Made by a program: the position numbers and the translations under genes. This document shows, in pieces, positions 16,813 through 18,734 of a stretch of 41,229 nucleotides of DNA. This DNA is from an uncultured Opitutia bacterium (lineage in GTDB: Bacteria > Verrucomicrobiota > Verrucomicrobiia > Opitutales > UBA953). The stretch lies in contig CAISXT010000055.1 in NCBI GenBank assembly GCA_903889525.1, positions 1 through 41,229 on the forward strand. Direction: 5' to 3'. Numbering within the stretch: the stretch's first letter is position 1; every line of letters starts with the position of its first letter. The notes beneath the pieces were generated by a model that ran no database searches, was not told the DNA's origin, and saw only the letters and a list, made by a program, of their open reading frames with translations.

Positions 16813-16917
16813 GGGGGATTGTGGGGCTTTTGAGGGGGTTTTGGCGAGTCTCGACCTCTCTGGATGCCTTTGCCTTTGACTCACCCGTGGCCGTCCGTTG
16901 AAGTCGGGGTCTTCGTC

Positions 16918-17007
16918 ATGGAATCCCCGGCACAGTCTTCGACCTCCCTCCGCTCCGCGGCTGGTCGTGCCTCGATTCCGGCGATTATTACCATCATCGG
17001 GCTCTGA
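16918..17007 (+). CDS. 29-codon leader peptide with Ile-rich end, upstream of cimA
   Basis: ATG at 16918 to TGA at 17005-17007. The peptide ends S-I-P-A-I-I-T-I-I-G-L. Four of the last seven sense codons are isoleucine (16984-16989 and 16993-16998), with a fifth at 16975. It lies between the divergent secreted-protein gene and cimA, whose product feeds isoleucine synthesis. The stop codon sits in the loop of a perfect 5-bp hairpin, and two alternative stems follow. A TTGACT box (16876-16881) lies 42 nt upstream. This arrangement is that of amino-acid attenuator leader peptides; expression itself is inferred. Confidence 0.7.
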   Translation: MESPAQSSTSLRSAAGRASIPAIITIIGL

Positions 17008-17063
17008 GCCCGCTGAACGGAACGCCCGACGGGCGACTCCCCGTTCCGCGGCACTCGGAACGG
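16998..17063 (+). promoter_or_regulatory. putative isoleucine attenuator: competing RNA hairpins
   Basis: Hairpin A: CGGGC / GCCCG (16998-17012) enclosing the leader stop codon. Segment 1 CGGAACG (17018-17024) can pair with segment 2 CGTTCCG (17042-17048), with CGCCC / GGGCG hairpin between them. Segment 2 CCGTTCCG (17041-17048) pairs perfectly (8 bp, 7-nt loop) with segment 3 CGGAACGG (17056-17063). 1:2 and 2:3 exclude each other. A ribosome stalled on the Ile codons would leave segment 1 free; one at the stop codon would cover it. After segment 3 only a pyrimidine-rich stretch with TTTTT at 17083-17087 follows, so termination would be non-canonical or Rho-dependent. Confidence 0.6.
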
Positions 17064-17112
17064 TCCCACCTCTTTACATCCCTTTTTCACTCTCTCACCT
17101 ACCAACACCACC

Positions 17113-18672
17113 ATGGCACGCTCCATCGAAGTCTATGACACCACCCTCCGCGACGGCTCGCAGGGGCAGGGCATTCATTTCACCGTTGATGACAAGTTGC
17201 GCATCGCGGTCGAGCTCGAGCGCTTCGGTATGACTTATATCGAGGGGGGCTGGCCGGGCTCTAATCCGCGAGATATCGAGTTCTTCGCCCGGGCGAAGAA
17301 AATCAAGTTCAAGCACGCCAAGCTCGCCGCGTTCGGTTCGACCCGCCGTAAGGGCGTGCGGGCAGCCGAAGATGCCCAGGTGCGCGGCCTCCTCGAAGTG
17401 GGTACCCCAGTGGTGACTATCTACGGCAAGACTTCCGCGCTCCATGTGCGCGAAGTGCTCCGCTGCTCCCCTGAGGAAAATCTCGAGATGATCCGCGACA
17501 CGGTTGCTTTCCTGAAGTCCCACCGCCGCGAGGTCGTCTACGATTGCGAACACGCGATCGACGGCTGGAAGGAAGATCCGGCCTACGCCATCGCTTCCAT
17601 GCTCGCCGCCGTCGAAGGCGGGGCTGACCGCATCGTACTTTGCGATACCAATGGGGGTTCGCTGCCGGCAGAAGTGGCTGCCGCCACGCGTGCGGCCCTC
17701 GCGGCTCTGAAGAAGACGCCCATCGGCATCCACACGCACGATGACGCCGGCCTAGGCCTTGCTAACGCCCTTGCCTCCCTCGAAGCGGGCGCCTCACACG
17801 TCCAGGGCACGGTCAATGGCATCGGCGAACGTACGGGCAATTGCGACCTCACGGCCGTCATCCCCTGTGCCCAATTGAAGTTTGGCTGGAAGTGCGTCTC
17901 CTCCACGGCCCTTAAGAGCCTCGCCAGTCTGTCTCGCTTTGTGGACGGCGTGGCCAATCTCGCTCCTGATCCGCGTCGCCCGTGGGTCGGCACGGCGGCC
18001 TTTGCCCACAAGGGTGGCACGCACGTGGATGCGGTTCGCAAGTTCTCGGCGGCCTACGAACATATCGATCCAACTGTCGTCGGCAACGAGCGCACGGTGC
18101 TCGTCAGTGACCAATCCGGCCGCAGTAATATCGTCCTCAAGGCGAAGGCCCTCGGCATCGATCTGGATCGCGATTCCCCGGCCACCGCCACCGCACTTGA
18201 TGAGCTGAAGAAGCTCGAGCACGCTGGCTGGAGTTTTGAAGACGCGGAAGCTTCATTGGCGCTTCTGCTTCGCCGCCATATCGGCAAGAGTAAGGCAGCG
18301 CCTTTCGAGGTCGCTTCTTATCATGTCACCGCCCGCGGTGCCCAGGGCTCTGCTTATTGCGAAGCCGTGGTCCGCCTGAGCATCGCCGGTAGGGAAACGC
18401 TCACGGTGGCCGAAGGCGATGGACCGGTCCATGCGCTCGACCAGGCCCTGCGTTCGGCCCTCGTGAAATCTTTCCCGAAGCTCGCGAAGGTGAGCCTCGT
18501 GGATTATAAGGTACGTATTCTTGGTGGGGCCGATGGCACCGCGGCTAAGACCCGGGTGGTCATCCGTTCCTCCGACGGCAAGGGCTCCTGGGGCACCGTC
18601 GGCGTGAGCGAAAATCTTGTCGAGGCCTCGCTCCAGGCGATTGTCGACGGTTACGCCTACGCTTTGTCCTGA
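17113..18672 (+). CDS. cimA: (R)-citramalate synthase
   Basis: A 519-residue enzyme of the LeuA/HMG-lyase-like superfamily. It condenses pyruvate and acetyl-CoA to citramalate, the threonine-independent start of isoleucine synthesis. It begins IEVYDTTLRDGSQGQGI (Arg13-Asp14 active site). The metal motif IGIHTHDDAG carries His207 and His209; GTVNGIGERTGNCDL is at ~234-247. The C-terminal ~150 residues have the LeuA-dimer regulatory-domain pattern (STAT: YHVTARGAQGSAYCEAVVRL, TRVVIRSSDGKGSWGTVGVS). Length and motif spacing fit the CimA subfamily better than 2-isopropylmalate or homocitrate synthase. The Ile-coded leader upstream agrees with this. A strong hairpin follows the stop codon. Confidence 0.9.
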   Translation: MARSIEVYDTTLRDGSQGQGIHFTVDDKLRIAVELERFGMTYIEGGWPGSNPRDIEFFARAKKIKFKHAKLAAFGSTRRKGVRAAEDAQVRGLLEVGTPVVTIYGKTSALHVREVLRCSPEENLEMIRDTVAFLKSHRREVVYDCEHAIDGWKEDPAYAIASMLAAVEGGADRIVLCDTNGGSLPAEVAAATRAALAALKKTPIGIHTHDDAGLGLANALASLEAGASHVQGTVNGIGERTGNCDLTAVIPCAQLKFGWKCVSSTALKSLASLSRFVDGVANLAPDPRRPWVGTAAFAHKGGTHVDAVRKFSAAYEHIDPTVVGNERTVLVSDQSGRSNIVLKAKALGIDLDRDSPATATALDELKKLEHAGWSFEDAEASLALLLRRHIGKSKAAPFEVASYHVTARGAQGSAYCEAVVRLSIAGRETLTVAEGDGPVHALDQALRSALVKSFPKLAKVSLVDYKVRILGGADGTAAKTRVVIRSSDGKGSWGTVGVSENLVEASLQAIVDGYAYALS

Positions 18673-18700: not shown

Positions 18701-18734
18701 AAGGGCGGGGTAGCAATCATCAACCCCGCCCTTT
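18701..18734 (+). terminator. terminator hairpin of cimA ending at the next start codon
   Basis: Perfect 11-bp stem AAGGGCGGGGT / ACCCCGCCCTT (18701-18711, 18723-18733), 11-nt loop. Only TTT follows before the ATG at 18735, so the short T tract runs into the start codon of the following gene. It may act as terminator for cimA, as an inhibitor of initiation on read-through RNA, or both. Confidence 0.65.

Follow-up and report, generated by a model that had tools for sequence, protein, structure and literature searches.

The window analysed here, a stretch of 41,229 nucleotides from an uncultured Opitutia bacterium (contig CAISXT010000055.1), carries on its forward strand the gene cimA for citramalate synthase (17113-18672; 646.7 bits with TIGR00977, cut-off 450), which we propose as a regulated gene. 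Upstream of it lie a short ORF of 29 codons with an isoleucine-rich end and the stop codon TGA (16918-17007), the putative leader peptide, and three complementary segments on the same strand, namely segment 1 (17010-17020), segment 2 (17041-17051) and segment 3 (17056-17063). They are followed by a G-free, C-rich spacer (17064-17112), which is T-rich 10-12 nt after the hairpin of segments 2 and 3 and reaches to the cimA start. A GC-rich hairpin, presumably functional, stands behind cimA on the forward strand (18701-18733); this hairpin and the unrelated character of the following ORF (18735) point to a single-gene cimA transcript. In front of the leader ORF, a -35-like box TTGACT (16876-16881, forward strand) is followed after 17 nt by a -10-like box TGAAGT (16899-16904, forward strand), and both may act as a promoter that sets the transcription start. 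TTGACT is present in 44 of 44 relatives with its first T 37-42 nt before the leader ATG, while the -10-like place is occupied by TGAAGT or TGGAGT in 29 of them and by other hexamers in 15. If these boxes are the promoter, the leader ORF starts within a few bases of the RNA 5' end. The rhizobial trpL is leaderless, and the leader ORF in a study of Corynebacterium glutamicum ilvBNC reportedly has no ribosome binding site. A simple promoter and terminator scan did not distinguish real signals from shuffles (22 terminators vs 20.4 expected and one promoter vs 4.8 expected).

The role of cimA as entry to isoleucine synthesis is stronger than was known when the locus was initially described from its letters. 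None of the 12 genus members tested exceeded 69.3 bits with the threonine deaminase model (TIGR01127), and one member of the sister genus g5 gave 66.1 bits; 294 bits were obtained in one g4 genome and 288 bits in one g3 genome, all of these scores being below the curated cut-off of 378.75 and coming from TIGR01127 alone, not from the two-domain model. The CimA matches in the same g4 and g3 genomes were LeuA-like only (at most 72.6 bits). Because threonine deaminase was not detected in the 12 members, citramalate looks like the sole isoleucine-specific entry in the genus. Hence, the target belongs to the pathway of the amino acid that would be sensed, as in other attenuators. A conserved leader was not found before ilvB in 12 genus members, several of which have unconserved short ORFs with some Ile, Leu or Val codons; in this survey the start of L179 was probably mispicked and the window's own genome had no ilvB over the cut-off. 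Before the leuA-like genes, designated by a weak CimA match, 230 nt were examined in 13 members for ORFs with ATG starts, and no leader was evident.

The translation of the leader ORF is MESPAQSSTSLRSAAGRASIPAIITIIGL-stop. Its five Ile in the last eleven codons, reported in the preliminary description, were borne out, and it is the only one among the 684 ORFs of at least 12 codons on both strands of the window with five or more Ile in this place; Ile-rich ends of this kind were absent from 20 dinucleotide shuffles of the window (about 963 ORFs per shuffle). The Ile-rich leader ORF and the complementary segments upstream of cimA are real features beyond chance. The comparison with relatives was based on an alignment of 44 leader sequences (A1, MAFFT columns; 42 distinct, the window included). 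All 44 full-length leaders retain an intact ORF, of 29 codons in 26, 27 codons in 17 and 30 codons in one, and its stop is kept while the letters vary (TAA 26, TGA 14, TAG 4). Isoleucine makes up 44.7% of the last nine leader residues vs 6.0% elsewhere in the leader, and its codons ATT and ATC interchange (ATT 117, ATC 109, ATA 2). Nine of the 44 leaders are poorer in isoleucine, five with two and four with three Ile in the last nine residues, and the leaders of L036, L037 and L051 terminate with KITILGR or IITTLGR. The pN/pS is about 0.99 over the first part of the leader and 0.56 over the last ten alignment columns; as judged from such comparisons, the end of the leader ORF evolves as coding sequence. 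A Gly codon GGG two codons before the stop is found in 42 of 42 distinct leaders, an invariance that can be explained by the stop-codon hairpin described below.

All three complementary segments of the preliminary description are present as written, namely CGGAACG at 17018-17024, CGTTCCG at 17042-17048 and CGGAACGG at 17056-17063. Its placement of segment 1 had to be revised, since the 1:2 register starting from 17018-17024 is fully paired in just 17 of 42 distinct sequences and the conserved segment 1 is 17010-17020. Full pairing was found in 39 of 42 distinct sequences for 17015-17020 with 17041-17046 and in 40 of 42 for its extension, 17010-17013 with 17048-17051; 98.8% of the cells of segment 1 are paired with segment 2. 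Segment 2, which is common to both alternatives, is nearly invariant, as would be expected of a strand with two obligatory partners. The alternative hairpin 2:3 (17041-17048 with 17056-17063) has 95.5% of its cells paired; on the MAFFT columns its helix is full in 35 of 42 distinct sequences, and one of its pairs is a U-G wobble in eight sequences. When the 2:3 stretch was folded alone, a hairpin with at least six pairs from segment 2 was obtained in 42 of 42 distinct sequences, with -9.6 to -15.0 kcal/mol. The related sequences L036, L037 and L051 have an altered segment 3 and form a new hairpin from the same segment 2 (-14.5 to -15.0 kcal/mol), which is the best single case of covariation. 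Two further conserved helices were absent from the preliminary description. One is a stop-codon hairpin over the last codons and the stop (16998-17012, forward strand; 16998-17003 with 17007-17012), in which the outer five pairs are full in 41 of 42 and one pair shows changes on both sides. The other is nested inside 1:2 (17023-17035, forward strand; 17023-17027 with 17031-17035), with 3 to 4 pairs changed on both sides. Within the leader ORF, 16929-16933 and 16941-16944 may pair with 16963-16971 (84.7% of cells paired, weak covariation).

The alignment of upstream regions, recommended at first as a check for a conserved ORF with compensatory changes in the three segments, was favourable for the Ile-rich ORF, for the nested and stop-codon hairpins with their double changes and for the rebuilt 2:3 in three sequences, but helix 1:2 showed no double change in the 44-sequence alignment, for which it is too invariant. 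Slid partners reduced the paired cells to at most about 51%, or to at most 49% in the 2:3-containing structure. The latter contains 9 double-change cells vs 1.4 in shuffles, the number of pair types is not in excess over shuffles, and RNAalifold gave a small covariation term (-0.37) with double changes at 3 of 21 pairs of the consensus. Since the shuffles ignore the relatedness of the sequences, we judge the covariation to be moderate, and the nested and stop-codon hairpins appear moderately supported by it. Only 1 of 200 shuffles folds as well as the region 16918-17112 (z -2.7), and 17005-17100 (z -2.0, 6 of 200), 17038-17095 (z -2.9) and 17005-17052 (z -3.1) are likewise more stable than their shuffles. 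As far as the aligned sequences tell, the cimA leader shares conserved, mutually exclusive hairpins with ribosome-mediated attenuators.

The distribution of the element was analysed in a genus sample of 55 genomes including the window's own, and 79 family genomes were searched for CimA. Residue 1 of CimA was matched in 45 of the 55 genus members; in the other ten, CimA was cut at the 5' end (four), gave a weak LeuA-like match only (three) or gave no match (three). A covariance model of the ORF end and the hairpins (R1), built on 35 distinct sequences, matched with 65-106 bits in the same 45 genomes, always just upstream of cimA. Since the training sequences match by construction, the informative result is that the element was present in each member that has the region and that a second copy was seen in none (at most 22.6 bits with R1). 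An absence of ORF and stems from close relatives had been named as a refuting outcome; what was found is their presence in 45 of 45 genus genomes with the cimA 5' end. The other 24 family genomes gave at most 19.4 bits, and at the level of the order (372 genomes) and of the phylum (387 genomes) R1 found nothing outside the genus above 26.4 bits, whereby searches over 40 genomes used stricter filters that lose some weak matches. Seven weaker R1 matches were viewed by eye, none of them before an evident cimA or ilv gene. In the sister genus g5, where CimA is 75-77% identical, a leader was found in none of the five upstream regions read (L043-L046, L058). By these matches the element seems to be confined to one Opitutae genus, with chance-level matches elsewhere. 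Rfam families did not match the leader at gathering score, and a search of 16840-17130 with E up to 10 gave three chance-level matches only (best 13.3 bits vs a gathering score of 39), hence membership in an Rfam family (T-box, ilvB motifs and others) was rejected. In the open-licence literature we found no description of a leader or attenuation of citramalate synthase or cimA, none of leader peptides or leader-linked structured RNAs in Verrucomicrobia and nothing on Verrucomicrobia together with Rho. The initial impression that no family with such a leader has been described in Verrucomicrobiota agrees with these searches.

Opposite folds for a ribosome stalled on the Ile codons and one at the stop codon had been anticipated, which was analysed with folding models. 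A ribosome footprint of assumed size was masked and pair probabilities were calculated for the 44 sequences on transcripts ending 12 nt past 2:3. With the ribosome at the last Ile codon, the median probabilities are 0.98 for 1:2 and 0.01 for 2:3, and 1:2 is ahead in 39 of 44 sequences; L003, L024, L029, L039 and L041 prefer 2:3 even in this state. A ribosome placed at the first Ile codon within the last nine gives medians of 0.96 (1:2) and 0.03 (2:3), with 1:2 ahead in 32 of 44 and 2:3 favoured in 12. At the stop codon the medians change to 0.00 for 1:2, a value partly built in because segment 1 is masked, and 0.91 for 2:3, and 1:2 is ahead in 3 of 44; the three sequences that lack 2:3 at the stop are those with the rebuilt hairpin, which the alignment columns do not capture. 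Without a ribosome, both pairings are about equal (medians 0.40 for 1:2 and 0.46 for 2:3; 1:2 ahead in 21 of 44). When the 42 distinct sequences were modelled as full-length transcripts, the states at the last Ile codon and at the stop held (0.98 and 0.97), whereas stalling at the first Ile codon within the last twelve left 2:3 slightly ahead (medians 0.57 vs 0.34). Hence, early stalling on full-length transcripts fails to favour 1:2, and only stalls near the end of the ORF clearly throw the switch. The models thus agree with the attenuation scheme in that moving the ribosome from the last Ile codon to the stop exchanges 1:2 for 2:3, and the anticipated opposite folds were recovered for these two positions but not for early stalls on full-length transcripts.

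It is likely that the cimA leader represents an isoleucine-responsive, ribosome-mediated attenuator, and we hold its sensing half with still greater confidence. Transcription would begin at a promoter a few dozen bases upstream, resulting in a nearly leaderless mRNA with the leader peptide as first ORF. When charged tRNA-Ile is scarce, a translating ribosome would stall on the Ile codons just before the stop and leave segment 1 (17010-17020) free to pair with segment 2 (17041-17051), a pairing that would block hairpin 2:3 and permit RNA polymerase to proceed into cimA. When isoleucine is plentiful, the ribosome would reach the stop codon and cover segment 1, 2:3 (17041-17063) would form and cimA expression would fall. 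In the least certain step, 2:3 would arrest or terminate transcription despite its lack of a U-tract, perhaps as a hairpin-stabilised pause or as a weak terminator at the U-rich site 10-12 nt downstream. Of the attenuation logic first put forward for this locus, the leader, the exclusive hairpins and the ribosome geometry are upheld, with conservation across one genus; the original register of segment 1 and the Rho-dependent readout were given up.

A U-tract directly behind the hairpin is a feature of intrinsic-terminator attenuators that 2:3 does not have, and its absence, already seen in the window, was confirmed in the 44 aligned relatives, in which the first ten tail bases after 2:3 contain 1-4 T. 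With assumed parameters, the RNA:DNA hybrid behind 2:3 is of average strength (-13.2 kcal/mol, the window median being -13.0). Hairpins with U-runs stand at several other gene ends of this genome, and the gene before leuA ends with one in 13 of 13 genus members as viewed by eye. In the spacer, conservation concerns its C-rich character and T at +10, +11 and +12 after 2:3 (36, 38 and 30 of 42), and G is rare among the 44 relatives (none in 18, one in 17, 2-4 in 9). Hairpin-stabilised pause sites have a spacing similar to that of the T at +10 to +12, and from the readout data as a whole we favour transcriptional arrest at a U-poor hairpin. Nevertheless, a transcriptional readout by 2:3 reaches, in our estimation, somewhat less than an even chance. 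More tentative still is the complete picture of a so far undescribed readout, in which a ribosome-controlled hairpin without U-tract, 10-12 nt upstream of a conserved U-rich site, might stop or stall RNA polymerase on citramalate synthase in a clade that is Rho-less and seemingly without Shine-Dalgarno sites. If true, citramalate synthase would be the first known leader-peptide target of its kind.

The preliminary description had suggested a Rho-dependent or translational readout instead; the former is not supported by the present data, and the latter is judged unlikely. With regard to translation, Shine-Dalgarno-like motifs were found before 0 of 31 window genes, cimA included, although 13.4% of random 17-mers have one (P about 0.01), so there is no such site to hide. 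Several gene starts in the window follow C-rich, G-poor stretches. In the apparent lack of Shine-Dalgarno motifs, hiding of the start codon itself would be a natural translational control. The leader codons GGUCGUGCC could pair with the cimA start and hide the start codon unless a stalled ribosome covers these codons. This start-hiding helix joins CGUGCC with GGCACG and extends up to CGUGCCAU with AUGGCACG; five of its pairs occur in the RNAalifold consensus structure, all six bases are paired in 29 of 42 distinct sequences, and in the model it vanishes when the ribosome stalls at the first Ile codon within the last twelve (0 of 42 at 0.5 or more). However, double changes are missing from the helix and the shuffles are not exceeded (0 cells), and in the folding models it becomes weaker when the ribosome moves from the last Ile codon (median 0.51) to the stop (0.06), which is the wrong direction, while the accessibility of the start codon hardly changes between the states (0.32-0.46). 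Moreover, translational attenuation leaves the conserved 1:2/2:3 switch unexplained. It is an unlikely explanation as a whole, and start-codon occlusion was set aside as main readout on the missing covariation and the wrong direction.

The strong conservation of sequence and structure in the leader region would also suit a riboswitch-like RNA that binds a ligand or protein, with the leader ORF being incidental. We regard this as improbable, because the frame, the stop and the Ile are conserved at the codon level, the Rfam families do not match and the variable nested loop is unlike a ligand pocket. An arrest peptide, in which the nascent leader stalls the ribosome and the conserved AQS and GRA residues sense a ligand, appears slightly less probable again: some stretches of the N-terminal half seem to be conserved between the sequences, but it is the first part of the leader that has the higher pN/pS, on which this candidate was rejected, and its conserved wobble positions fit the coding-region hairpin. 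Rho-dependent attenuation, in which the 49 G-free bases after 2:3 (17064-17112, within the window's longest such run of 51 bases) would serve as a C-rich loading site for Rho that leader translation exposes or hides, is nearly refuted, because no Rho was detected in any of the 15 genus members and four members of the sister genus tested, and C-rich, G-poor starts also precede other genes in the window.

Regarding Rho itself, TIGR00767 gave at most 24.2 bits in these 15 genus members and at most 25.1 bits in the four g5 members at a cut-off of 509.45; all eight other genomes tested, six from g2-g4 and two from other families, exceeded 513 bits. A search for the Rho RNA-binding domain detected none in 12 genus members and one g5 member, whereas 193 of the 223 genomes in an order sample scored above the cut-off. 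Rho appears to have been lost in the window's genus and in the sister genus g5, while other genera of the family keep it.

The proposed isoleucine attenuator resembles the classical leader-peptide attenuators (trp, his, ilvGMEDA, leu), which likewise have regulatory codons before the stop, exclusive pairings and a ribosome position that decides the fold, and of which the target is likewise in the pathway of the sensed amino acid. It differs from them by Ile codons rather than mixed branched-chain codons, by cimA as target, by the three-segment switch with a nested hairpin, by the missing U-tract and by the presumably nearly leaderless ORF. The available part of a study on the ilvB-II motif, the C. 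glutamicum ilvBNC leader, describes an element that is also genus-restricted with one copy per genome, has a uORF varying in length by whole codons and a terminator/antiterminator alternative; unlike the cimA leader, it has a U-run after P2, Ile, Leu and Val codons, ilvB as target and an actinobacterial host (PMC10272879). The ilvB-OMG and Leptospira ilvB motifs, in the sections available of the two papers, are likewise suspected uORF attenuators of branched-chain genes; they have branched-chain and Thr codons and are situated before ilvB, a separation from the cimA leader that is based on description, not on alignments (PMC10272879; PMC8632094). Leaders of the Mycobacterium cys operons, as far as the available portion of their report goes, also carry a run of regulatory codons near the stop without a canonical terminator, and their polyY stretch between leader and gene can be likened to the cimA spacer; the authors suggested Rho (PMC1262725). 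Unlike the situation at cimA, Rho is present in Mycobacterium and, in the same portion, conserved hairpins do not occur (PMC1262725). Since no U-tract, no Rho and no Shine-Dalgarno motif were found, the cimA leader was filed in none of the three corresponding attenuator subclasses; it would work like classical amino-acid attenuation, but as a variant with an unusual readout. Our data would extend leader-peptide attenuation to citramalate synthase and to the Verrucomicrobiota. With Rho, Shine-Dalgarno motif and U-tract all apparently missing, they also raise the question of how a ribosome-controlled hairpin switches a gene without the three textbook readouts.

Some further observations were made at other loci. 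In two distant Verrucomicrobiota, other candidate leaders precede cimA, a clear one in L135 (2660-3010) ending with SIVVVGSIIIVD-stop and a weaker one in L136 (2660-3010) ending with ESSIVNVD-stop. Both are directly followed by a GAAACC...GGTTTC hairpin with a short T/C tail, possibly as an independent cimA attenuator of more canonical type. Many of the 12 genus members read upstream of ilvB (L177-L188) share a promoter-like TTATTCACACTTGCCCC ... TTTTCTAACCC and a small palindrome of the CCTGCAGGC type in the 5' region of this gene. In the sister genus, a TTGCCC ... TACGGT-like promoter stands before cimA in L044, L045, L058 and L096, with a reverse-strand gene just upstream; the promoter-like boxes are so close that cimA itself may be leaderless in some members. 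Finally, the assemblies of L060, L078 and L104 are titled Akkermansia muciniphila, Polynucleobacter meluiroseus and Klebsiella pneumoniae, while their cimA matches the window's genus (98%, 96%) or relatives (64%), and these titles look wrong.
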